Source of the DNA: Flavobacterium palustre | GTDB taxonomy: Bacteria; Bacteroidota; Bacteroidia; Flavobacteriales; Flavobacteriaceae | Length of the DNA: 64,000 bases | NCBI RefSeq assembly: GCF_014639535.1 | Contig: NZ_BMGA01000002.1 | Coordinates: 372,001-436,000 of the forward strand | Direction: 5' to 3' | Shown here: positions 13,796-63,579 of the stretch, piece by piece | Layout: each line of letters starts with the position of its first letter | Numbering within the stretch: position 1 is the stretch's first letter | Notes under the pieces: generated by a model | Told to the model about the DNA's origin: nothing | What the model saw: the letters and a program-made list of their open reading frames with translations, nothing else | The model's database searches: none | Position numbers and translations under genes: made by a program

Positions 13796-15166
13796 ATGAA
13801 AAATTTAATTCTGTGTGCCTCTTTAATTCTTTCACTTTCTGTTCATGCTTTTAAAATTGACCCTCCGAAAGTCGCTCAAAAAGAAACTAAAGTCAAAGCA
13901 CCTTTTGGAACCACTAAAATTAAAACACCCGATTTTAGCCAATGTGCCACATTCCTAATCACCGATTTTGGTGCCGTAAAAGGAGATCAGGACAAAACCA
14001 GCCAGGCCATTGCCAAAGCTATTGATGCGGCAAACAAAGCCAGTGGAGGAACGGTTATTATTCCCGAAGGTGAATGGCTTACCGGAAAAATTCATTTTAA
14101 GAGTAATGTCAATTTGCATTTAAACAAAGGCGCTTTATTACTTTTCTCTGATAATCCGAAAGATTATTTACCTGCGGTACATTCTACTTGGGAAGGGCTG
14201 GAATGCTATAATTATTCGCCATTAATTTATGCGTATCAATGTAAAAACATTGCCATTACCGGAGAAGGCGGAATCAAAGCTAAGATGGATTTTTGGAAAA
14301 AATGGGCCGGTCGTCCTAAAGGTCACATGGAAAGTTTGAAAAGATTATATAATCTTTCAGGTCAGAATGTTCCTGTTGAACAACGTATAATGGTGAATGA
14401 TACGGCAAATCTTCGTCCACAGTTTATTCAGTTTAACCGAAGCGAAAATATTTTATTAGATGGGATTTCAATCACAAATAGTCCGTTTTGGACCGTTCAC
14501 ACCTATCTTTCTAAGGATATTATTATTCGAAATCTAAACATCTACGCACATGGTCACAACAACGACGGCTTTGACCCTGAAATGAGTCAGAATATTTTAG
14601 TCGAAAACGTCACTTTTGATCAGGGAGATGACGCTATTGCTGCAAAATCAGGCAGAAATCCGGAAGGATGGCGTTCTAAAACTCCAACGAAAAACTTAAT
14701 TATTCGCAACTGTACCATAAAAAACGGACATCAATTATTAGCCGTAGGAAGTGAATTATCGGGCGGAATTGAAAATGTTTTTATCGATAACTGCGAAGTT
14801 TTAGACGGAGCAAAAATGTTTAATCTGGTGTTCATTAAAACCAACGAACGTATGGGCGGTTATGTTAAAAACATTCATGTTCAAAACATTAAAGGAAGTA
14901 AAATGGATTTTGGAGTACTGGGCATCGAAACGGATGTTTTGTACCAATGGAAGAATTTAGTCCCAACAATTGAACGTCGCCTGACTCCTATTTCAAATGT
15001 TTACCTAACTAATGTAAGTGCTAAAAACGTACAGTTCATTTCCAGAATTAAAGGAGAAAAAGAATTACCAATCAAAAATATTTACCTTAAAAATGTTACT
15101 GCAGAGAGTATTCAGGGAAGCGAAAAGCATATTAATGAGAATTTGATAAATTTTAAAATAAAGTAA
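13796..15166 (+). CDS. Glycoside hydrolase family 28 (polygalacturonase-like)
   Basis: 456 residues with a signal peptide (about 1-18). The fold is a right-handed beta-helix with the GH28 catalytic motifs HNNDGFDPE and QGDDAIAAKSGRN (catalytic aspartates) and NGHQLLAVGSE. GH28 enzymes cleave galacturonic-acid chains of pectin. It is exported, probably periplasmic or surface-exposed, and 14 nt ahead of a GH43 gene, so the two form a small pectin-side-chain unit. Two -7-like elements are visible upstream, TATATTTG (13716-13723) and TACTTTTG (13748-13755). Confidence 0.88.
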   Translation: MKNLILCASLILSLSVHAFKIDPPKVAQKETKVKAPFGTTKIKTPDFSQCATFLITDFGAVKGDQDKTSQAIAKAIDAANKASGGTVIIPEGEWLTGKIHFKSNVNLHLNKGALLLFSDNPKDYLPAVHSTWEGLECYNYSPLIYAYQCKNIAITGEGGIKAKMDFWKKWAGRPKGHMESLKRLYNLSGQNVPVEQRIMVNDTANLRPQFIQFNRSENILLDGISITNSPFWTVHTYLSKDIIIRNLNIYAHGHNNDGFDPEMSQNILVENVTFDQGDDAIAAKSGRNPEGWRSKTPTKNLIIRNCTIKNGHQLLAVGSELSGGIENVFIDNCEVLDGAKMFNLVFIKTNERMGGYVKNIHVQNIKGSKMDFGVLGIETDVLYQWKNLVPTIERRLTPISNVYLTNVSAKNVQFISRIKGEKELPIKNIYLKNVTAESIQGSEKHINENLINFKIK

Positions 15167-15180
15167 TCCAAACGTATTCC

Positions 15181-16605
15181 ATGTTTCAAAAAAACTATAA
15201 AAACACCATTCTAAGAGTAGCTTTTTTTATCATTTCTTCTTTGGCTACGGCTCAAAAAAGTAATGTTGATGCCATTTATTCCGGAATTCCCTGGTTTGAC
15301 CAGAATAAAAATACAGTAAGTGCCCGTGGAGCTAACATTGTAAAAGAGAACGGTAAATATTATTTATTTGGTGAATACAAGAGTGATTCTATCATTGATT
15401 TTACAGGTTTCAGTTGTTACTCTTCTGATGATTTATACAACTGGAAATTTGAAAACATAGTCCTTCCAGTTCAGGAATCAGGAAAAATAGGACCGGGTCG
15501 CATTGGCGAAAGACCTAAAGTAATGAAATGTCCTAAAACCGGCGAATACATCATGTATATGCACACCGATGATTTAAAATACAAAGATCAATGTGTGGGC
15601 TATGCCACCTCAAAAACAATCAATGGTATATATACTTTCCAAGGTCCCATTTTGTTTAATGGTCAACCAATTAAAAAATGGGACATGGGGACTTTTCAGG
15701 ATACTGACGGCAGTGGTTACATTATTACTCATTCCGGTAATCTGTACAAACTAAGTGATGATTATAAAAGCGTAACCGAACAAATTGTAAAAGACATGAC
15801 CGGACAATGTGAAGCTCCGGTTATCTTTAAACATGATAACACCTATTTTTGGTTAGGTTCCAGTTTAACTTCCTGGGAACGCAATGATAATTATTATTTT
15901 ACAGCCACTTCATTAAAAGGACCATGGAAATCACAAGGATTTTTTGCTCCAAAAGATTCGCTTACCTGGAATTCACAAACCACATTTGTACTTCCTGTCA
16001 CAGGTTCAAAAGAAACTACTTATTTGTTTATGGGTGATCGTTGGGCTTTTCCACATCAAAAATCAGCTGCAACTTATGTCTGGCAGCCTTTAACGGTTAA
16101 AAACGATTCTATTTATTTACCCGATTACAAGGAAAATTGGCAAATTAACCTGAAAACCGGAGAATGGTCCACTCTAAAATTAAAAGGACAGATTATACCA
16201 AATTCAGATACAAAAAAAATAAAGTATTCTTCTAATTGGAAAACACAAGCATCAGTAAAAGATGCTTTTTCTGATAGTAGTTCTAATGTAAAAGGAGCTT
16301 CTTTTTCGGTAAATTTTAAAGGTTCACAAATTGGTTTATATGGAGTAGCCCGACCAAACGGCGGTTATGCCCGGGTTGAAATTCAAAATGCTAATGGAAA
16401 AACAATTCAATCAAATCTTATCGAAATGTATTGTAAATACCCGGAATCATCCTTAAAATACCTAAGTCCAATTTTGAAAAAAGGCAATTACAAACTAATT
16501 GTAACCGTATTAGGAAAACATGGCAACTGGTATAAAAAAGACGGAACAGAATTTGGAAGCACCGGAAATTTTGTTTCGCTTGACAAAATAGTTGTTAAAA
16601 ATTAG
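15181..16605 (+). CDS. Glycoside hydrolase family 43-type enzyme
   Basis: 474 residues with a signal peptide ending near TAQ at residue 24. Residues about 30-330 form a five-bladed beta-propeller with the family features (SARGANIVKENGKYYLFGEY, then GERPKVM, KWDMGTFQDTDGSGY and GQCEAPVIFK). Residues 350-474 look like a beta-sandwich carbohydrate-binding module. GH43 enzymes act on arabinan, xylan or galactan side chains. It follows GH28 directly, so both probably serve pectin or hemicellulose breakdown. The exact specificity is not readable from sequence. Confidence 0.83.
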   Translation: MFQKNYKNTILRVAFFIISSLATAQKSNVDAIYSGIPWFDQNKNTVSARGANIVKENGKYYLFGEYKSDSIIDFTGFSCYSSDDLYNWKFENIVLPVQESGKIGPGRIGERPKVMKCPKTGEYIMYMHTDDLKYKDQCVGYATSKTINGIYTFQGPILFNGQPIKKWDMGTFQDTDGSGYIITHSGNLYKLSDDYKSVTEQIVKDMTGQCEAPVIFKHDNTYFWLGSSLTSWERNDNYYFTATSLKGPWKSQGFFAPKDSLTWNSQTTFVLPVTGSKETTYLFMGDRWAFPHQKSAATYVWQPLTVKNDSIYLPDYKENWQINLKTGEWSTLKLKGQIIPNSDTKKIKYSSNWKTQASVKDAFSDSSSNVKGASFSVNFKGSQIGLYGVARPNGGYARVEIQNANGKTIQSNLIEMYCKYPESSLKYLSPILKKGNYKLIVTVLGKHGNWYKKDGTEFGSTGNFVSLDKIVVKN

Positions 16606-44157: not shown

Positions 44158-44192
44158 TTTGTTTGGTTTTTATATAAAACATTAGATTTTTT

Positions 44193-44254
44193 ACCATTAA
44201 AAAATTTAGTTTCGTTAAAATTCAAAACTTAACTGGACTTAATTTCTTAATGGT
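44193..44254. repeat. Palindromic repeat, family ACCATTAAGAAATTAAG, copy 1
   Basis: Left arm ACCATTAAAAAATTTAG (44193-44209), right arm CTTAATTTCTTAATGGT (44238-44254). The right arm is the exact reverse complement of a 17-mer at 61765-61781. It fills the gap between ccoG and ccoP. Confidence 0.7.
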
Positions 44255-44286
44255 TTATATAAAAACAATGTTTATCATTTGAATAA

Positions 44287-53723: not shown

Positions 53724-54485
53724 ATGTTGCCAAATCAACGAAGAGAGAAAATACTGGATCTTTTAAAAGAAGATGGCTTTGCCAAAGTAATAGACCTCGC
53801 AAGATTATTTAAAGTAACCGAAGTTACTATTCGTCAGGACCTTGAAAAATTAGAAAGTGAGGGGCTAATTTTAAAAGAACACGGCGGAGCAAGTATTAAA
53901 AACGTTGAAGATCAAGTGAGAAGCTTTTCGCTTCAACGTCAGGAAAATTTAGAAGAAAAATCGGCAATAGCTGAAAAATGCCTAGAATTTATTGAAAACG
54001 GAGATACCATCATTTTAGATTCGGGTTCTACAACCACTGAAATAGCCAAGAAACTAAAAGGACTCAAACAACTTACCGTAATTACCAATGCTTTAAACAT
54101 TGCTTTACTATTAGGAACCGATCCTGATATTGAGGTAATTATGACCGGAGGCGAATTTAAACCGCCTACATTATCATTAACCGGTCAAAAAGCCGCCGAT
54201 TTCTTCAAAGGCTTAAATGTCCAAAAACTATTCTTAGCCACAGCGGGAATTTCCCTAAAATCAGGACTTACCTACCCTAGCATCAGCGACTTGGTAGTTA
54301 AAAAAGCCATGATTGATGCAGCCGAAGTTACTTATTTAGTCGCTGATAGCACAAAGATTGGCAAAAGTGCCCTGGCCAGTTTAGGCGCCTTATCCTTAAT
54401 TGATTACATCATTACCGATAACGGAATTGAAGAGAAACACAAAGAAGTGTTTAGGGATAATGAAATTGAAGTTATCGTAGCATAA
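53724..54485 (+). CDS. DeoR/GlpR-family repressor of the sugar operon
   Basis: 253 residues. The DeoR-type helix-turn-helix is at 1-60 (NQRREKILDLLKEDGFAKVIDL, then EVTIRQDLEKLE) and the DeoRC sensor domain follows, with ILDSGSTTTEIAKKL and FLATAGIS. These proteins respond to phosphorylated sugars. It lies 49 bp ahead of the isomerase gene, with possible operators before and after it. Confidence 0.88.
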   Translation: MLPNQRREKILDLLKEDGFAKVIDLARLFKVTEVTIRQDLEKLESEGLILKEHGGASIKNVEDQVRSFSLQRQENLEEKSAIAEKCLEFIENGDTIILDSGSTTTEIAKKLKGLKQLTVITNALNIALLLGTDPDIEVIMTGGEFKPPTLSLTGQKAADFFKGLNVQKLFLATAGISLKSGLTYPSISDLVVKKAMIDAAEVTYLVADSTKIGKSALASLGALSLIDYIITDNGIEEKHKEVFRDNEIEVIVA

Positions 54486-54524
54486 AAAGAAAATAAAGAG
54501 AAAAACATACAAAAAGAAAATAAA
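54484..54524. promoter_or_regulatory. Two direct repeats, candidate DeoR-type operators
   Basis: AAAAAGAAAATAAA occurs at 54484-54497 and again at 54511-54524. The 13-mer AAAAGAAAATAAA within it is the reverse complement of the word in front of the deoR-type gene. The repeat is low-complexity, so the sharing could be chance. Confidence 0.4.
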
Positions 54525-54534
54525 AACAAACACA

Positions 54535-55938
54535 ATGGCAACATCAACATTAGGAGTAATTATAGGAAACAGAGATTTTTTCCCGGACAGTTTAGTAGAA
54601 AAAGCAAGATTTGAAATCATTGAAGTTTTTGCTAAATTAAACATCAAACCTATTTTATTAGAGAGTACTGATACCAAACTAGGCGGTGTCGAAACCTATA
54701 AAGAAGCGCAAAAATGTGCTGAATTATTCAAAAAACACCAGGATGAAATTATGGGAGTACTTGTTTTACTGCCTAATTTTGGTGATGAAAAAGGAGTAGC
54801 TGACACCTTAAAATTAGCCAACTTAAATGTTCCTGTTTTAATTCAGGCGTATCCGGATGAATTGACAAAAATGAATGTGGTAAACCGTCGTGATTCCTGG
54901 TGTGGAAAAATCTCCGTTTGCAACAATTTATACCAATACGGTATCAAATACTCATTGACAAGTCAGCATGTAATGAGTCCGTCAGATCCTATTTTCCAAA
55001 AAGACTTATTAGACTTTACTGCGGTATGCCGAGTGGTAAAAGGAATGCGTAATGTACGTATTGGTGCTATCGGTGCAAGACCGGGTGCTTTTAACACGGT
55101 TCGTTATTCTGAAAAAATATTACAAAGAAACGGTATCACGGTTACCACTGTAGATTTATCTGAAATTTTAGGAAAAGCTAACAAATTAACGGCTGATAGT
55201 CCGGCTGTAAAAAAACATCTGGAATCAATCAACGCTTACGTTGCCCAGGGAAAAACACCTAACGAAGCGATGCTTCAAATTGCAAAATTAGATGTGGTAC
55301 TGAAAGATTTCATGGAAGAATACGCTTTAGACGCCACGGCAATCCAATGTTGGACTTCATTGCAACAAAACTATGGCTGTAATGTGTGTACGAGTATGAG
55401 TATCATGAGCGAAAACATGCTTCCAAGTGCTTGTGAGGTGGACGTTACAGGTACATTGAGTATGTATGCGATGCAATTGGCTTCCGGTTCACCAAGTGCA
55501 TTGGTAGACTGGAATAACAACTATGCTGACGATCCTGAAAAATGCGTTTTATTCCACTGCGGAAACTGGGCAAAATCATTCCTTCCGGACATTTCATTGA
55601 GCACTGCTCCTATCTTAGGAACTACTGTGGGAGTTGAAAACACTTATGGAGCTTTGGATGGAAGAACGCCTGCTATGCCATTAACTTATGGTAGAATCAG
55701 TACTGATGACCCTAAAGGAATCATCAAAGTTTACATTGGCGAAGGTGAATTGACTAACGACGAATTGAACACTTTTGGAAACAGAGCCGTAGCCCAAATC
55801 CCGGATTTACAAGGATTGATGCAATACGTTTGTAAAAACGGATTTGAACATCACGTGGTAATGAACGCTTCAAAAACGGCAGCCATCTTAGAAGAAGCCC
55901 TTGGAAATTACATGGGTTGGGAAGTTTACAAACACTAA
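54535..55938 (+). CDS. L-fucose/arabinose-isomerase-family sugar isomerase
   Basis: 467 residues. The FucI/AraA fold is indicated by GVIIGNRDFFP, VLVLLPNFGDE, RIGAIGARPGAFNTVRYSEKI and the metal-binding residues in AIQCWTSLQQNYGCNVC and SACEVDVTG, with FHCGNWAKS near 345. It converts an aldose to a ketose. Together with a split transketolase, an FGGY kinase and a ribose-type ABC importer it fits D-apiose isomerase, but that substrate is inference. Confidence 0.8.
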   Translation: MATSTLGVIIGNRDFFPDSLVEKARFEIIEVFAKLNIKPILLESTDTKLGGVETYKEAQKCAELFKKHQDEIMGVLVLLPNFGDEKGVADTLKLANLNVPVLIQAYPDELTKMNVVNRRDSWCGKISVCNNLYQYGIKYSLTSQHVMSPSDPIFQKDLLDFTAVCRVVKGMRNVRIGAIGARPGAFNTVRYSEKILQRNGITVTTVDLSEILGKANKLTADSPAVKKHLESINAYVAQGKTPNEAMLQIAKLDVVLKDFMEEYALDATAIQCWTSLQQNYGCNVCTSMSIMSENMLPSACEVDVTGTLSMYAMQLASGSPSALVDWNNNYADDPEKCVLFHCGNWAKSFLPDISLSTAPILGTTVGVENTYGALDGRTPAMPLTYGRISTDDPKGIIKVYIGEGELTNDELNTFGNRAVAQIPDLQGLMQYVCKNGFEHHVVMNASKTAAILEEALGNYMGWEVYKH

Positions 55939-55948
55939 ATAAATCAAG

Positions 55949-56788
55949 ATGTATATCGAAAATTTAAAACGAAAATCCATTGAGAACAGAAAAAAAATTC
56001 TCAAATATATCTACAATGCCAAAGCGGGTCACACCGGAGGAAGTCTCTCTATTTTAGACATTCTGAATGTATTGTACAATGATGTGATGAACGTTTCTCC
56101 TGAGAATTTCGGTTCTAATGACAGAGACCGATTTATTCAGAGTAAAGGACATTGTGTGGAAGCTTTGTATGTGGTTTTGGCTGACAAAGGCTTTTTTCCC
56201 GAAGAAGATTTATTGACACTTTGCCAATACAACTCTCCTTACATTGGTCATCCTACCAAATCTATTCCCGGAATTGAACAAAATACTGGTGGTTTAGGTC
56301 ACGGTTTGCCTATTTGTGCTGGAGCTGCTTTGGCTGCCAAAAAAGACAATTCGAAAGCTAAAGTATTTACCATTTTAGGAGATGGTGAAATGGCCGAAGG
56401 TTCTAACTGGGAAGCGATGATGTTTGCAGCACATTATAAATTGGATAATCTGTGCGCTATTTTAGATTACAACAAATTGCAAATTACTGCTCCTAACGAA
56501 GATGTGATGGGCTTAGAGCCAATTGATCAAAAACTGGAAGCCTTTGGCTGGGCAGTAAAACATGTTGACGGACATAATATAGAAAAGCTTTTAGAAACCT
56601 TCAGAGGGCTTCCTTTAGAAAATGGAAAACCTACCTTTATTATTGCGCATACTGTTAAAGGAAAAGGAATCAGCTATATGGAAAACGTATTGAAATGGCA
56701 TCACGGTGTTCCATCGAAAGAGCAATACGATTTAGCTATTGAGGAATTAGACAAACAATTAGAAGAACTTGAAAACAGCTTGAAATAA
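55949..56788 (+). CDS. Transketolase, N-terminal subunit
   Basis: 279 residues. The thiamin-diphosphate (TPP) part of a split transketolase: GHTGGSLSILDILNVLY, KGHCVEALYVVLA, GGLGHGLPICAGAALA, and GDGEMAEGSNWEA with the TPP motif GDG-x-N. It overlaps the next gene by one base and needs the second subunit. Confidence 0.9.
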   Translation: MYIENLKRKSIENRKKILKYIYNAKAGHTGGSLSILDILNVLYNDVMNVSPENFGSNDRDRFIQSKGHCVEALYVVLADKGFFPEEDLLTLCQYNSPYIGHPTKSIPGIEQNTGGLGHGLPICAGAALAAKKDNSKAKVFTILGDGEMAEGSNWEAMMFAAHYKLDNLCAILDYNKLQITAPNEDVMGLEPIDQKLEAFGWAVKHVDGHNIEKLLETFRGLPLENGKPTFIIAHTVKGKGISYMENVLKWHHGVPSKEQYDLAIEELDKQLEELENSLK

Positions 56789-57744
56789 TGGAAGAAATAA
56801 AGACAATTGACGCCGCTAACCTTGAAGTGTTTTCTGAAGTACTTCAAAATTTAGCCGAAACAGACCGAGATATTATCGTTGTTACCAGCGATTCCCGTGG
56901 TTCAGGGAAATTAGTTCCTTTTGGACAAAAATATCCCGAACAAATTGTAGAAGTAGGTATTGCCGAACAAAACTTAGTAGGTGTTGCCACAGGATTAGCC
57001 AGCATGGGCAAAAAAGCATTTGCTGTTTCCCCGGCTTGTTTTCTTACCGCAAGAGCTTTGGAACAAATTAAAAATGACGTGGCTTATTCTGATAATCCCG
57101 TAAAACTTATCGGTATTAGTGCCGGGGTGAGTTATGGAGCATTAGGAACCACACACCATAGTTTGCACGATTATGCGGTTTTGAGAGCCATTAACAACAT
57201 CAGTATTGTAGCTCCAGCCGATAATTTTGAAACTGCCGAAGCCATCAAACAAGCAGCCGAAATGCAAAGTCCAATTTACCTGCGTTTTGGTAAAAAAACA
57301 ATGCCTGCCAACCTGAATCCGGAGGTAACTGATTTTAAAATCGGAAAAGGACGTGTCATTCAGGAAGGAAACGATTTGACGTTTATTGCGACTGGTGAAG
57401 CCGTACTTCCTTGTGTGGAAGCAGCGAAACTATTGAAAAAAGAGCATAATATCTCCTGTAAAATCATCAGTTTACACACTATTAAACCTTTGGATACCGA
57501 ATTATTACTAGATTCTGCTTCCAACGGAAAACCAGTTATTACAGTGGAAGAACATTCTGTAAATGGCGGATTGGGCGAAGCTGTGGCTTCTTTATTATTC
57601 CAAAATGGTTTTACCAATAAATTCAAAATTGTAGGATTACCGGATGATCACACGGTTTCGGGTTCGCAAATCGAAATTTTCAATCATTATGGTATTTCAG
57701 CCGAAGGATTAAAAAATACTGCTTTAAACACAATCAACCTATGA
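56788..57744 (+). CDS. Transketolase, C-terminal subunit
   Basis: 318 residues. The Pyr and C-terminal domains of a split transketolase: [17 protein letters not shown] (catalytic glutamate), [18 protein letters not shown], and RFGKK. It overlaps the N-terminal subunit by one base and the SBP gene by four. Confidence 0.9.
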
Positions 57745-58661
57745 AGATAAAACAGCTTTCCTTACTTATTTTAACTGTAATTTTTGTTTTTGGATGTTCT
57801 TCGAAAGAGAAGTCTGAAAAGCCTAAAATTGCAGTTGTGGTTTCGACATTGAACAATCCCTGGTTTGTGATGCTGGCCGAATCAGCTGCTGAAAATGCCA
57901 AAAAGTTAGGTTATGAAGCCAAAATTTTCGATTCGCAAAACAATCCTGCTATCGAATCGGACAATTTTGAGAACCTTATTTCTTCGGGTTATGATGCAAT
58001 TCTGTTAAACCCAACTGATTCTGACGGTTCTATTTCGAATATCTTAAAGGCTAAAACAGCCGGAATTCCGGTTTTTTGCATGGACAGAGAAGTAAATGCC
58101 GATGATGCCGCTACCAGCCAGATTCTTTCAGACAATTATTCGGGTTGTGTGGCTATCGGAATCGAATTTGTAAAAGAATTAAAAGAAAAAGGAAAGTATG
58201 TAGAAATTCTGGGCTTGGTGGGTGATAACAACACCTGGGCGCGTTCAGGAGGATTCCATTCGGTGGTGGATAAATTTCCAAACCTAAAGATGGTAGCGCA
58301 ACAAAGTGGCGATTTCGACCGAAATAAAGCTATGGAAGTTTTAGAAACAATCCTTCAGGCTAATCCTGATATTGATGGTGTTTTTTGTGGTAATGATGCG
58401 ATGGCAATGGGTGCTTTTCAGGCCTTACAAGCAGCTGGAAAAGAAACTAAAGTTAAAATTTTCGGATTTGATGGTGCCAGCGATGTTGTTGAAAAAATCA
58501 GAGAAAAGAAAATTGTGGCTACAGGCATGCAATTTCCTAAAGTGATGGCTCAAACCGCTGCCCAATATGCAGATGAATATTTTAAAGGAAGAAAAGTGTT
58601 TCCTCAAAGAGTTCCTGTAGAAGTTGAATTAGTTAATGCAGCAAACATTAAAGACTATTAA
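57741..58661 (+). CDS. Ribose-type sugar-binding lipoprotein (RbsB-like)
   Basis: 306 residues. Lipobox VFGC with cysteine 19. Type I periplasmic-binding fold: [47 protein letters not shown], and [12 protein letters not shown]. It captures the substrate sugar for the ABC importer. It overlaps the transketolase gene by 4 nt. A lipoprotein form is usual where the protein is anchored to the inner membrane. Confidence 0.88.
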
Positions 58662-58662
58662 T

Positions 58663-59277
58663 ATGAAAAAAAAGTATTTATATATTTTAGCTTTCGTAAT
58701 CATTGCCATTTTAGGATACAATTCAGTTTATTTCAAAAAGCTGAGTGATGTCAAAAATGCAAACAAGGAAAATTTCGACTTTAAAGCTTACGCTGATTCC
58801 ATTTACTACAAAGGGATTCTGAAAAGCAAAAAAACGATTGCTCTGACCAATTTGATTGCTTCGGTAAAAACCAATCAGGATGAGGCATTTAAAAAATACG
58901 GAAACCGACTTGGAATAGGAAATTCGGCTTATTTTATGATTAAAAGCACCGGAAAAATCATCGATATCAAAGACGGAATTTACACTATTGCTGACGAAAA
59001 AAATGGTGTGGTTTACATTGATACCAAATACATTTTCGGGAATGCTTTAAGAGATGCTTCGGGCTTAGTAAAACTGACCGATTTTAAAACCAATGCTCAA
59101 TTCAACAAAGTTTCAGAATCTTTAAATGATATTGTTCGAAATGAAGTTGTACCAAAAGAAATCAAAAAAGTAAAAATTGGCGACAGCATTTCGTTTTCAG
59201 GAGCCATCAAATTAAGCAAAAAACAAATTTTGTTTACCGATCTTTTAATTATTCCATCACAAATTAAACTGCAGTAA
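58663..59277 (+). CDS. DUF2291 periplasmic protein of the sugar importer
   Basis: 204 residues from ATG 58663. One N-terminal membrane helix (about 5-22), then a mixed alpha-beta periplasmic domain with YIFGNALRDASGLVKLTDF and KIGDSISFSGAIKL. DUF2291 proteins sit next to sugar SBPs of this type in several pathways. Starts at the base after the SBP stop, so it is surely co-translated. Confidence 0.75.
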   Translation: MKKKYLYILAFVIIAILGYNSVYFKKLSDVKNANKENFDFKAYADSIYYKGILKSKKTIALTNLIASVKTNQDEAFKKYGNRLGIGNSAYFMIKSTGKIIDIKDGIYTIADEKNGVVYIDTKYIFGNALRDASGLVKLTDFKTNAQFNKVSESLNDIVRNEVVPKEIKKVKIGDSISFSGAIKLSKKQILFTDLLIIPSQIKLQ

Positions 59278-59278
59278 A

Positions 59279-60769
59279 TTGTTAGAAGCAATTAACATAT
59301 CGAAAGAATTCCCGGGTGTAAAAGCACTGAATCAGGTCAATTTCAAATTTTATCCTGCCAAAGTCAATGCCATATTGGGAGAAAACGGTGCGGGAAAATC
59401 TACCTTGCTAAAAATTTTGACAGGGGTTTACACGCAATACGATGGCGAAATTCAATTAAATGGAAAAACGGTTTCTTTTTCGAGTATCAAAGAAGCACAA
59501 AATGCCGGAATTGCTATTATTCATCAGGAATTGAATTTAATCCCTGAGTTGAGTGTAACCGAAAATTTATTCCTGGGAAGAGAAATTAAAACTGCATTCG
59601 GACTTTTGGATTCTCAAAAAATGGAAACGGAAGCCAAACGGATTTTTGAAAAAATTCAATTGAATGTCAATCCGAAAACCTTAGTACAACAGCTGAAAGT
59701 AGGAGAACAACAATTAATTGAAATTGCCAAAGCACTGCTTTGTAATGCCGATGTGATTTTGATGGACGAACCTACTTCTGCCCTGAGCGACAAAGAAATA
59801 GACAACCTACACCGCATTATTTATGAGCTAAAAAAAGAAGGCAAAACCATTGTTTACATTTCTCATAAAATGGAGGAATTATTCAAAATTGCTGAACATT
59901 ATACCGTTTTAAGAGACGGGAACAGCATTGATGCCGGTGAAATGAAAGACACTACCGAGCAGGAATTAATTCGGAAAATGGTAGGGCGTGATGTGCTTAT
60001 CGAAAGAAAAAACAGCACAAATCATTTTCCAAACACCATTTTGAAAGTTGACAAACTCAACCTGATGCATCCAAATGATAAGAAAAGAAAATTGCTTCAC
60101 GATATTTCTTTCGAATTAAAAAAAGGAGAAATTCTGGGGATATTTGGATTGATGGGAGCCGGCAGAACCGAACTTTTAGAAACCATCTTTGGCATGCACC
60201 CTTCAAACAGTGAGTATGCTTTAGAAATTGACGAGAAAAACACTTTTCACAAAAAACCGAAAGATGCCATTGCAAACCGATTGGCTTTTGTAACCGAAGA
60301 CCGTAAAACCGAAGGATTAGTGTTGGGAATGGATATTGCTGAAAATATCAGTCTGACTAATTTGCCTACGTTTGGGCTTTTAAGTCCTTCAAAAGACAAA
60401 ACTTCGTCACAGGATTATATCGAAAAATTACGCATCAAAACACCATCTGAAATGCAGTTGTGCCAGAATTTAAGTGGTGGAAATCAGCAAAAAGTAGTTT
60501 TAGCCAAATGGCTCGCAACCAATCCTCAGATTTTAATGATGGATGAGCCAACGCGCGGAATCGATATCAACGCCAAAAATGAAATTTACAATCTAATAAA
60601 AGATCTCGCAGCCAACCAAATGAGTATCATTTTAGTTTCTTCTGAAATTCCCGAAATACTAGCGCTTTCGGACAGAATTTTAGTAATGGCCGAAGGAAAG
60701 ATTAAAGCTTCCTATTTAGCCGCAGAAGCCAATGAAGATAAATTATTAAAATCAGCCTTACCTGAATAA
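59279..60769 (+). CDS. Sugar ABC importer ATPase with two ATP-binding cassettes (RbsA/MglA type)
   Basis: 496 residues, TTG start at 59279. Two cassettes: first Walker A GENGAGKST, signature LKVGEQQLIEIA (a weak form), Walker B VILMDEPTSAL; second domain with degenerate Walker A GLMGAGRTE, signature LSGGNQQKVVLA and Walker B ILMMDEPTRGID. Such asymmetry is normal for RbsA. It drives import of the sugar. Confidence 0.92.
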   Translation: MLEAINISKEFPGVKALNQVNFKFYPAKVNAILGENGAGKSTLLKILTGVYTQYDGEIQLNGKTVSFSSIKEAQNAGIAIIHQELNLIPELSVTENLFLGREIKTAFGLLDSQKMETEAKRIFEKIQLNVNPKTLVQQLKVGEQQLIEIAKALLCNADVILMDEPTSALSDKEIDNLHRIIYELKKEGKTIVYISHKMEELFKIAEHYTVLRDGNSIDAGEMKDTTEQELIRKMVGRDVLIERKNSTNHFPNTILKVDKLNLMHPNDKKRKLLHDISFELKKGEILGIFGLMGAGRTELLETIFGMHPSNSEYALEIDEKNTFHKKPKDAIANRLAFVTEDRKTEGLVLGMDIAENISLTNLPTFGLLSPSKDKTSSQDYIEKLRIKTPSEMQLCQNLSGGNQQKVVLAKWLATNPQILMMDEPTRGIDINAKNEIYNLIKDLAANQMSIILVSSEIPEILALSDRILVMAEGKIKASYLAAEANEDKLLKSALPE

Positions 60770-60771
60770 TT

Positions 60772-61746
60772 ATGACTATATCCTTAAACCACCCTATTAT
60801 CAAAAAATCGCAATCGTTGATTGCACTGTTTCTTTTGTGTCTGTTTATCAGTTTGTTGTCTGATAAATTCATGACCAGCACGAATCTTTGGAATGTATTA
60901 AGACAAATCTCTGTGAATGTTTGTATTTCTGTTGGAATGACCTTAGTGGTTTTAATGGCAGGAATAGACTTATCCGTAGGTTCTGTTTTAGGTCTTACCG
61001 CAGCAATTTGCGCCGGACTATTAAAAAGCGGACTCTCTTTTGAATCCATGGATTTATTTGTAGGCTTTAGCGTTTTAGGAGCTATTTTAGCAGCCATACT
61101 TATCGGAATGGCCTTAGGTCTTTTCAACGGCTGGGTGATTACTAAATTCTCCATTCCTCCTTTTGTGGCAACACTGGCCATGTTAACCATTGCCCGTGGA
61201 TTAACGATGCTTTATACAGCAGGTATCCCAATTTCTAATTTAGGACCTGAATTTGAATTCATTGGATCGGGTTGGATTTTAGGCATTCCGGTACCGGTTT
61301 GGATTTCGCTCTTTATGGTTCTGATTGTTGTTTTCTTAACTAAAAAAACAACTTTCGGAAGATACATTTATGCTATCGGAGGAAATGAAAAAGCAGCATT
61401 TTTATCTGGAATCAGCATCAATAAAATCAAATTAGCTGTTTATGGAATTGCCGGAATGATGGCAGCTGTAGGTGGAATATTAGTCACTTCAAGACTAAAC
61501 TCAGCCCAACCGAATGCCGGTATGAGTTACGAACTGGATTCCATTGCAGCGGTGGTTATCGGTGGTACTTCACTGTCAGGCGGTGTGGGAACCGTTGCAG
61601 GAACTGTTATTGGTGCTGTAATTATTGGAGTTTTAAATAACGGACTGGTTTTACTGGATGTATCGCCTTTTTGGCAGCAGGTAGTAAAAGGAATCGTTAT
61701 TTTATTGGCGGTGATTATTGACAAAATGAATCAGAAAAATAAATAA
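60772..61746 (+). CDS. Sugar ABC importer permease (RbsC type)
   Basis: 324 residues with about ten hydrophobic segments. ISVGMTLVVLMAGIDLSVGS, FSIPPFVATLAMLTIARG and RYIYAIGGNEKAAFLSGI are family motifs. It forms the membrane channel and starts three bases after the ATPase stop. Confidence 0.92.
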   Translation: MTISLNHPIIKKSQSLIALFLLCLFISLLSDKFMTSTNLWNVLRQISVNVCISVGMTLVVLMAGIDLSVGSVLGLTAAICAGLLKSGLSFESMDLFVGFSVLGAILAAILIGMALGLFNGWVITKFSIPPFVATLAMLTIARGLTMLYTAGIPISNLGPEFEFIGSGWILGIPVPVWISLFMVLIVVFLTKKTTFGRYIYAIGGNEKAAFLSGISINKIKLAVYGIAGMMAAVGGILVTSRLNSAQPNAGMSYELDSIAAVVIGGTSLSGGVGTVAGTVIGAVIIGVLNNGLVLLDVSPFWQQVVKGIVILLAVIIDKMNQKNK

Positions 61747-61764
61747 AACATTTTATTCTTTTTC

Positions 61765-61818
61765 ACCATTAAGAAATTAAGAAAATTTAGGCTCAATGCT
61801 CCTTAACTTCTTAATGGT
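61765..61818. repeat. Palindromic repeat, family ACCATTAAGAAATTAAG, copy 2
   Basis: Left arm ACCATTAAGAAATTAAG (61765-61781), right arm CTTAACTTCTTAATGGT (61802-61818) with one mismatch. The left arm is the exact reverse complement of the right arm of the copy at 44193-44254. Confidence 0.7.
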
Positions 61819-61952
61819 AAAACAATGTCACACTGAGCTTGTCGAAGTGCTTTCAAAACTGAAATTATTTTAAATATTTTTCTTTTTTGCTTGATCAAAA
61901 AAGAAACAAAAAAATCAAGTCTTACACTTCCTCGTCGGTCAAATTAGTTTTC

Positions 61953-62008
61953 GAATGCTAAAAGAAAAGAACTCGCTACGCTCAAACAGCTTTTCTTTTT
62001 ACGCATTC
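61953..62008. repeat. Inverted repeat with GAACTCGCTACGCTC loop
   Basis: GAATGCTAAAAGAAAAG (61953-61969) pairs with CTTTTCTTTTTACGCATTC (61990-62008), two bases longer on the right. The loop has AACTCGCTACGCTCAAACAG, a word that recurs in flavobacterial genomes by recall. Confidence 0.5.
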
Positions 62009-62079
62009 TTCAAACATTTGACACTCGACTGCGGAAGCTAAGGACAACATCACAACAACAATTTGATTTATAATTGAAA

Positions 62080-63579
62080 ATGAAAAAATATATTCTCGCG
62101 ATAGACCAGGGTACCAGCAGTACCAAAACCATACTTTTTGACGAATCAGGTCAGGCTGCAGCCAAAGGCAGCGTCGATTTAAAAACCGATTATTTTGACA
62201 ATGGTTTTGTCGAACAAAATCCCGAAGCCATTTTTCAAAATGTATTGGATTCGGTAACCGAATGTCTGAACGATTTCACAAAAAAAAGTCTGAATATTTC
62301 CGATATTGTTTCCTGTGGTATCAGCAATCAAAGGGAAACTTTTATCCTTTGGGACAAAGACGGAAAAGCCCTGGCTCCGGCGGTAGTTTGGGCCTGCAAG
62401 CGTTCGATAAATGTGTGTACGGATTTAATCGAAAAAGGGCAAAATGATTTTATCAAACTAAAAACAGGTTTGTTATTAGACCCGTATTTTTCAGGAACCA
62501 AATTGCTTTGGCTTTTGGAAAACGACTCCGAATTAAAACAAAAAGTAACCAACGGAGAAGTATATTTCGGAACGGTGGACTGCTGGCTTTTGTATAAACT
62601 AAGTAATGGAACCCAATTCAAAACCGATTATACCAATGCGTCCCGAACCTTGCTTTTCAATATCCATACTTTACAATGGGATGCTGAAATACTTGAAAAA
62701 TGGGGATTGTCTAATTTAAACTTACCGCAACCCTGCCCTTCTTCCCATGATTTTGGAACAGTAAATTGGAGTGAAATTTTAAAATTAGATCAAAACTTTT
62801 CTATTCCGATGACATCGTTGATTGGCGATTCGCATGCGGCGACTTTTGGAGAAGGCTGTTTCGAAAAAGGCACTGCCAAAGTCACTCTGGGAACCGGAAG
62901 TTCGATTATGATGAATATTGGCGACAAAGCTGTTTTATCTAACTCGGGAATGTTGACTACGATTTGCTGGAGTACCGAAGACCGCGTGGATTATGCACTG
63001 GAAGGAGCCATCGTTTCCTGTGGTTCGACTATTGAATGGCTTAAAAACGAATTGCAATTGTTCTCCTCTCCTGCCGAAACCGCTGCCATGGCAACAGCTA
63101 TAAATGACAATGCAGGTGTTTACTTGATTCCTGCTTTCAGCGGACTGGGAGCACCACACTGGCAAATGAGCCGTAAAGCTTCTATTGAAGGAATGACTTT
63201 TGGAACCACTAAAAATCATATTGTCAGAGCCGCCTTGGAAAGTATTCCGTACCAAATAAAAGATGTAGTGCAGGCAATGGAAAAAGACATGCAGGCCGCA
63301 TTAAAATCAATATCGGTAAACGGAGGAATGACCCAAAATCAATTTGTAATTCATTTCCTTGTCGATTTATTAGGGATTCCATTAAACAAACAAAAGAACC
63401 CGGACGTTTCTGCCTTGGGAGCAGCTTATTTATCCGGATTAAAAAGTGGTGTTTATGAAAGTATTGAACAACTTTCGGCAATTAATAAAAGCCAAACCGA
63501 ACAGGTTTTAGCTAACACTAGTAACGATTTACCAACTAATGGTTATAAGGGTTGGAAGGAAAAAATTGCTAAATTTTAG
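62080..63579 (+). CDS. FGGY carbohydrate kinase (glycerol-kinase-like)
   Basis: 499 residues from ATG 62080. Family motifs YILAIDQGTSSTKTILFD, CGISNQRETFILWDKDGKAL, GTVDCWLLYKL, GTGSSIMMNIG, and SVNGGMTQNQF. It transfers phosphate from ATP to a sugar or polyol. NQRETF resembles glycerol kinases, but the operon context (isomerase, split transketolase, importer) points to a ketose such as D-apulose. It is set apart from the operon by the repeat-rich gap. Confidence 0.83.
   Translation: MKKYILAIDQGTSSTKTILFDESGQAAAKGSVDLKTDYFDNGFVEQNPEAIFQNVLDSVTECLNDFTKKSLNISDIVSCGISNQRETFILWDKDGKALAPAVVWACKRSINVCTDLIEKGQNDFIKLKTGLLLDPYFSGTKLLWLLENDSELKQKVTNGEVYFGTVDCWLLYKLSNGTQFKTDYTNASRTLLFNIHTLQWDAEILEKWGLSNLNLPQPCPSSHDFGTVNWSEILKLDQNFSIPMTSLIGDSHAATFGEGCFEKGTAKVTLGTGSSIMMNIGDKAVLSNSGMLTTICWSTEDRVDYALEGAIVSCGSTIEWLKNELQLFSSPAETAAMATAINDNAGVYLIPAFSGLGAPHWQMSRKASIEGMTFGTTKNHIVRAALESIPYQIKDVVQAMEKDMQAALKSISVNGGMTQNQFVIHFLVDLLGIPLNKQKNPDVSALGAAYLSGLKSGVYESIEQLSAINKSQTEQVLANTSNDLPTNGYKGWKEKIAKF

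Follow-up and report, generated by a model that had tools for sequence, protein, structure and literature searches.

Apiose residues link two rhamnogalacturonan-II (RG-II) chains via borate in plant cell walls, and aceric acid and apiose are both sugars of RG-II (PMC12168206). The use of apiose by environmental bacteria is little described in the open-licence papers searched, and none of the papers listed there reports an apiose operon from Flavobacterium. Here, a nine-gene operon of Flavobacterium palustre is compared with the closest described systems. The operon occupies positions 53724–63579 of the window, that is, the whole stretch of 64,000 nucleotides analysed from contig NZ_BMGA01000002.1 (positions 372,001 to 436,000). 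It is likely, if unproved, to serve the import and breakdown of D-apiose by the known transketolase route, with an unusual ribose-type binding protein.

The reaction scheme used throughout is that of the apiose transketolase pathway, reportedly set out by Carter in 2018. PMC13001218 names this pathway and makes use of it, and states that the cluster described from SE15 is carried by E. coli strains able to grow on apiose and that apsI is present in Pectobacterium and missing from the Escherichia version of the cluster. The E. coli SE15-type cluster contains a sugar-binding protein, DUF2291, RbsA, RbsC, a kinase, AptA and AptB, all of them kinds found in the window. Records from Rahnella, Sodalis and Klebsiella INF102, which are listed as plasmids, carry a sugar-binding protein, DUF2291, RbsA, RbsC, a sugar-binding regulator, a transketolase pair, an isomerase and a kinase, and the AptB proteins of these three clusters are 73–77% identical to AptB of E. 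coli SE15. Eight structural gene kinds are held in common by the window and these enterobacterial clusters (E. coli SE15 lacks the isomerase). The differences lie in the regulator, which is SorC-type ('sugar-binding transcriptional') in the enterobacteria and DeoR in the window, in the clade and pocket of the binding protein, in the kinase, which falls outside the AplK clade in the window, and in gene order.

Two ribose systems also bear comparison. The Thermotoga maritima ribose operon is reported to encode a ribose importer, a ribokinase, a transketolase and two predicted D-arabinose enzymes, and to be induced by ribose and about equally by xylose (PMC3750489). The window shares with it the binding protein (58% identity and ten pocket residues), and DUF2291 is found in that genome; a transketolase and two sugar enzymes are reported there too, whereas the LacI-type regulator and the ribokinase are unlike the window. 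E. coli RbsDACBK has an importer of the same RbsA/RbsB/RbsC type, with a pocket that differs at one of ten positions, but its RbsD and RbsK are absent from the window, which adds an isomerase and a transketolase.

Operon structure, conservation and isomerase clade

The preliminary description of this DNA had named a set of genes running in one direction, and every one of them is present on the + strand. Successive distances between the nine genes are, from first to last, 49, 10, −1, −4, 1, 1, 2 and 333 bases; no gap up to RbsC exceeds 49 bases and the single long gap, of 333 bases, precedes the kinase. The first gene encodes a DeoR/GlpR-family regulator (53724–54485; PF00455 at 170 bits, PF08220), which would probably repress the operon until an intermediate is present. 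An ApsI-like aldose-ketose isomerase of the L-arabinose/L-fucose isomerase fold (54535–55938; sole Pfam match PF02952) follows and is predicted to convert D-apiose to D-apulose. The transketolase is split, as in the apiose pathway, into two adjacent genes (55949–57744), a thiamine diphosphate-binding N-terminal subunit (TkN, 55949–56788; PF00456 at 135 bits) and a C-terminal subunit (TkC, 56788–57744; PF02779, PF02780). These would transfer a two-carbon unit onto glyceraldehyde 3-phosphate to yield dihydroxyacetone phosphate and xylulose 5-phosphate. The FGGY kinase (62080–63579; PF00370 at 214 bits, PF02782) belongs to a GlpK-derived clade and, as a predicted D-apulose kinase, would supply D-apulose 4-phosphate from D-apulose; a TTG at 62074 is listed as its start, but the ATG at 62080 is the likelier one.

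Between the transketolase and the kinase lie the genes of an ATP-binding cassette (ABC) importer. They encode an RbsB-type sugar-binding protein (57741–58661), in which a lipobox-like N-terminal stretch was seen by eye, a DUF2291 protein that is presumed to be an importer partner (58663–59277; PF10054 at 159 bits), an RbsA-type ATPase with a TTG start (59279–60769; PF00005) and an RbsC-type permease (60772–61746; PF02653 at 154 bits). This importer would take up free D-apiose, the source of which may be plant pectin (RG-II) or other apiosides. The apiose-type clusters of E. coli and Rahnella also have a DUF2291 gene. RbsA is 40.9% identical to the ATPase of the E. coli apiose cluster, and the sugar ABC ATPase equivalog matches shown for it all fall under their cut-offs; no PF02653 permease other than RbsC was found in the genome. 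No ribokinase, RbsD, aldolase or epimerase is among the genes of the operon.

A scan of genome contigs with an isomerase alignment returned at least 583 relatives, and counts of related loci refer to the best 80 of these, each locus reaching about 9 kb to either side of the isomerase, with several contigs stopping inside the operon. The 80 loci derive from Bacteroidota, Verrucomicrobiota, Planctomycetota and Alphaproteobacteria, the closest named loci being from Flavobacterium (95–97%). TkN was found in 75/80 loci, and in 69/80 it lay downstream of the isomerase by no more than 3 kb. After filtering by length the partners numbered 75 (TkN), 74 (TkC) and, as lower bounds, 60 (kinase), 56 (RbsC), 54 (binding protein), 53 (DUF2291), 48 (RbsA) and 45 (DeoR, mostly directly ahead of the isomerase). 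As nearly the same set recurs in four phyla, the nine genes form a real unit, and the operon is a genuine conserved unit and not a chance assembly. Behind the isomerase and TkN the order varies, kinase and importer being arranged differently between relatives; in verrucomicrobial loci that have the importer after the isomerase, the kinase precedes the importer. Six loci from uncultured Alphaproteobacteria have the transketolase and kinase, together with another binding protein (24%), on the opposite strand, unlike Thalassovita (L097), which has the usual set. The isomerase was detected at E ≤1e-150 in 16 of 397 genomes sampled from the family of F. palustre, so the unit is patchy within it. 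If the operon does serve apiose, one conserved module handles this sugar in at least four phyla.

Reading frames set by tblastn were used for trees of the isomerase and the kinase. The preliminary description had proposed comparing the isomerase with characterised apiose proteins. In the isomerase tree, 20 operon isomerases grouped with those of the enterobacterial AptAB clusters of Rahnella, Sodalis and Klebsiella INF102 in one clade (98/100), the window isomerase being 54–55% identical to the latter three. The enterobacterial members are inferred to be ApsI, from cluster content and PMC13001218 rather than from a characterised ApsI sequence. A linear 11.6 kb record labelled as a Klebsiella plasmid (L124, CP110761.1) consists almost only of an apiose-type cluster and is probably an assembly fragment.

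A second set of Bacteroidota loci (L027–L040, n = 14), referred to as 51%-type, encodes isomerases of the same family that are 49–52% identical to that of the window. Nine of these were placed in the tree and fell outside the operon and enterobacterial clade as a separate group, with long branches flagged by the program. Neither half of the split transketolase was found in any of the 14 loci. AraB and AraD accompany the isomerase in 6/14, with AraB directly behind it in five of the six, and a sodium/solute symporter stands beside the isomerase in 5/8 of the remainder; in the 80 operon loci, as in the window operon, AraB and AraD beside the isomerase were absent (0/80). The 51%-type group (for example L027:9227–10720 and L032:10123–11526) is a candidate L-arabinose isomerase of a non-AraA type.

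The modelled structure of the window isomerase aligns along its whole length with L-arabinose and D-arabinose/L-fucose isomerases. This would also suit an operon for D-arabinose or mixed pentoses, as predicted for two enzymes of the T. maritima ribose operon, but the aldolase and epimerase are missing and the neighbours in relatives, given below, indicate RG-II; this explanation appears very unlikely. An L-arabinose operon (AraABD) was rejected in the absence of AraB and AraD. A sulfoquinovose route was likewise rejected, the isomerase matching sulfoquinovose isomerase SftI (NF048012) distantly, at 94.5 bits, far under the cut-off of 700.

Linkage to RG-II and apiose genes

Neighbour markers were identified in the 80 loci by clustering by sequence the reading frames within 9 kb and scanning representatives, namely one apiosidase (L064), two BT_1020-like proteins (L064, L091), all 11 GH127 proteins, two RuBisCO-like proteins (RLPs) and two OiaK-like kinases (L086, L118). 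At least one marker was present in 19/80 loci. The apiosidase (PF13204) was found in 8, BT_1020-like proteins in 6, GH127 in 11, RLPs related to OiaX in 6 and OiaK-like kinases in 4; BT_1020 itself has a role in RG-II. A separate tblastn count over 84 loci gave 8, 6, 12, 7 and 6 respectively, with any marker again in 19. All 11 GH127 neighbours were best matched by the NCBI aceric acid hydrolase model, six scoring over its cut-off of 950 and five at 816–915, one of the latter being cut short. Aceric acid is not known from any source other than RG-II. The two scanned OiaX-like RLPs (515 and 498 bits) and the two scanned OiaK-like kinases (462 and 368 bits) had these models as their best matches, at scores below the cut-offs of 700. 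Among the 14 51%-type loci, a small control set, a single marker was seen (1/14), a GH127-type match. In a planctomycete locus (L118:8965–16415) the isomerase, both transketolase halves and the kinase share a strand with OiaX-like and OiaK-like genes that come after them; because these trail the module, this locus may combine two apiose branches.

Co-occurrence was assessed in the 397 genomes of the family, comprising the 16 with the operon and 381 others, with GH28 as control family. The apiosidase was found in 15/16 operon genomes and 53/381 others. GH28, a general pectin marker, was linked about equally (15/16 against 76/381), so the unconditioned association of the apiosidase is not specific, which tells against its use as support for apiose. 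When the 91 GH28-positive genomes were taken alone, the apiosidase was present in 14/15 with the operon versus 31/76 without it (P = 1.6e-4, uncorrected for kinship), and strong apiosidase matches (E ≤1e-70) in 13/15 versus 11/76 (P = 1e-7, likewise uncorrected). In 4/16 operon genomes an apiosidase lay no farther than 10 kb from the isomerase.

The genome of F. palustre has a single apiosidase match (contig C1, 984434–985837), which comes after SusC/SusD and before GH28, two GH78-type rhamnosidases and GH95. An aceric acid hydrolase (C1, 968335–970290; 1110.6 bits against a cut-off of 950) lies ahead of this stretch. By its gene content, the region looks like an RG-II locus. The preliminary description had pointed instead to pectin enzymes in the window; GH28 and GH43 genes are indeed there, at 13796–16605, but they are unlinked to the operon and, being about 37 kb from it, are weak evidence alone. 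The isomerase clade, the RG-II and apiose-gene neighbours in relatives, the co-occurrence with the apiosidase and the RG-II-type locus of the same genome together make apiose the best substrate.

Binding protein, kinase and split transketolase

Several observations besides the GH28 control weigh against an apiose operon. No marker neighbour was found in 61/80 loci, some on short contigs, and the RG-II-type locus of F. palustre is on a different contig from the operon. The remainder concern three of the encoded proteins, together with one gene of the wider genome.

The binding protein is 58% identical to the T. maritima ribose-binding protein (RBP; 2fn8), 43% to the R. etli protein of 5ibq and 39% to E. 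coli RbsB. Ten ribose-pocket residues of T. maritima RBP are tabulated in PMC2630998, and the window pocket, NWFDRRFNDQ, is identical at all 10 ribose-contacting positions. The same ten residues are kept in 54/54 length-filtered operon binding proteins, a set with no entry from the six alphaproteobacterial loci that encode the 24% protein. The Rahnella, Sodalis and Klebsiella INF102 proteins follow the R. etli protein, with F in place of W and W in place of F, and those of E. coli, a second Klebsiella and Caballeronia have a third pattern. In the binding-protein tree, the operon proteins group with T. maritima RBP, with support of 88/84 only, and so lie outside the enterobacterial and R. etli apiose clade, membership of which is an accessory and not a defining feature. 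Clustering with a ribose binder had been named in the preliminary description as grounds for abandoning apiose, and on its face this is what was observed. Structural comparison gave a tie between 4ry0 and 2fn8. We take 5ibq to be an apiose-bound structure and 4ry0 a ribose-bound one, the title of the latter saying only ribose transporter solute binding protein. Judged from the pocket, uptake of ribose, or of both ribose and apiose, is possible. As a ribose standard, the T. maritima operon is compromised by the transketolase and the two predicted D-arabinose enzymes reported in it and by a response to xylose about equal to that to ribose. If the operon is for apiose, the so-called ribose-binder type is part of an apiose system.

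These features raise the alternative of an unusual D-ribose operon, in which imported ribose would be converted to ribulose and ribulose phosphate, and a dedicated transketolase would lead into central metabolism. The binding-protein clade and pocket are consistent with it, as are the ribose induction and the transketolase of the T. maritima operon and the nucleoside-hydrolase-like PF07632 genes that occur in or next to the operon in relatives. However, ribulose phosphate should need no dedicated transketolase, the neighbours in relatives are RG-II enzymes, and the PF07632 member Sde_0182 is reported not to cleave nucleosides (PMC8910321). The operon has neither ribokinase nor RbsD, and no ribokinase over the cut-off was found in the genome (best TIGR02152 match 117.6 bits against 299.65); the latter absence is weak evidence, because only 4/14 control genomes reach that cut-off. 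A plain ribose operon was thus rejected as first choice for want of a ribokinase and in view of the RG-II neighbours in relatives, and the unusual form is unlikely.

The kinase falls outside the AplK clade and is no nearer to AplK than to true GlpK. It is 36–37% identical to five AplK (AptAB-cluster) kinases and 37–41% to five true GlpKs, and it scores higher to GlpK than to AplK. It also passes the broader GlpK subfamily cut-off (NF000756, 530.2 against 498). Against the GlpK equivalog (TIGR01311) it scores 531.8 bits, below the cut-off of 590.35, and a quick tree with eight open forks places it in a Bacteroidota group apart from both the five GlpKs and the enterobacterial AplKs. Among the references, the closest to it is the kinase from a Caballeronia AptAB-type cluster (47%). 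Its clade is by itself no proof of substrate. These scores, with the distant SftI match of the isomerase, could suit another branched or modified plant sugar, or a plain glycerol kinase beside an isomerase-transketolase core acting on a ketose handled in some other way. The shortfall from the equivalog cut-off, the position outside the five-GlpK clade, the linkage of the kinase to the module across phyla and the SftI cut-off of 700 bits all speak against this, and it is considered highly improbable. A glycerol kinase present by chance was rejected, as the kinase recurs in the module across phyla.

TkN is 47.6% identical to E. coli AptA (45–49% across E. coli, Rahnella, Sodalis and Klebsiella INF102) and TkC 40.9% to E. 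coli AptB (40–42% across the same four). The top PDB sequence match of TkC is the C chain of a split transketolase, 6yaj. TkC scores 234 bits with a Rhizobium split transketolase lacking an adjacent isomerase of this kind and 209 with AptB; as far as similarity goes, the identity of the split transketolase is uninformative, fitting the Rhizobium system as well as AptAB. The preliminary description had stated that the gene set equals the apiose transketolase route. That route is still the best reading of the operon, but, given the binding protein, kinase and transketolase, 'equals' was too strong.

PF07632 genes and sequences around the operon

Secreted PF07632 proteins (Sde182, nucleoside-hydrolase-like) are encoded at most about 9 kb from the isomerase in 25/80 loci, 13 of them between operon genes (copies include L048:3523–4962, L042:16342–17631 and L045:16505–17794), and in none of the 14 51%-type control loci. 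In a draw of 369 genomes, 14 operon genomes had a PF07632 match, and in 10 of these 14 the gene lay no more than 10 kb from the isomerase; the other two of the 16 operon genomes lacked PF07632 or were outside the draw, and the family was also matched in 35 genomes other than operon genomes. The N-terminal acidic residues D37, D43 and D44 (L048 numbering) are conserved in 93% or more of 35 PF07632 copies. Sde_0182, the crystallised member, is described as inactive on nucleosides and is thought to be a furanose-interacting module (PMC8910321).

The T. maritima genome has matches for both the DUF2291 and the apiosidase models, and for this reason its 'ribose' operon merits a second look. Tentatively, and with the balance of probability against it, PF07632 may be a new furanosidase family that releases apiose for the operon, and the T. 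maritima ribose operon may be at least partly an apiose operon. No paper linking PF07632 to apiose was found in the open-licence literature; the linkage to the operon is the more novel side result and gives an orphan family a testable role.

In two Flavobacterium relatives (L042, L045) the PF07632 gene sits between RbsC and the kinase, the site of the 333-base gap in the window (61747–62079). A tblastn search of this gap showed no trace of a PF07632 gene remnant. The gap contains short inverted repeats, and similar repeats have copies near window positions 44189–44272 and in L043 and L044. Immediately upstream of the operon is a PemK/MazF-like toxin gene (PF02452; 52879–53202).

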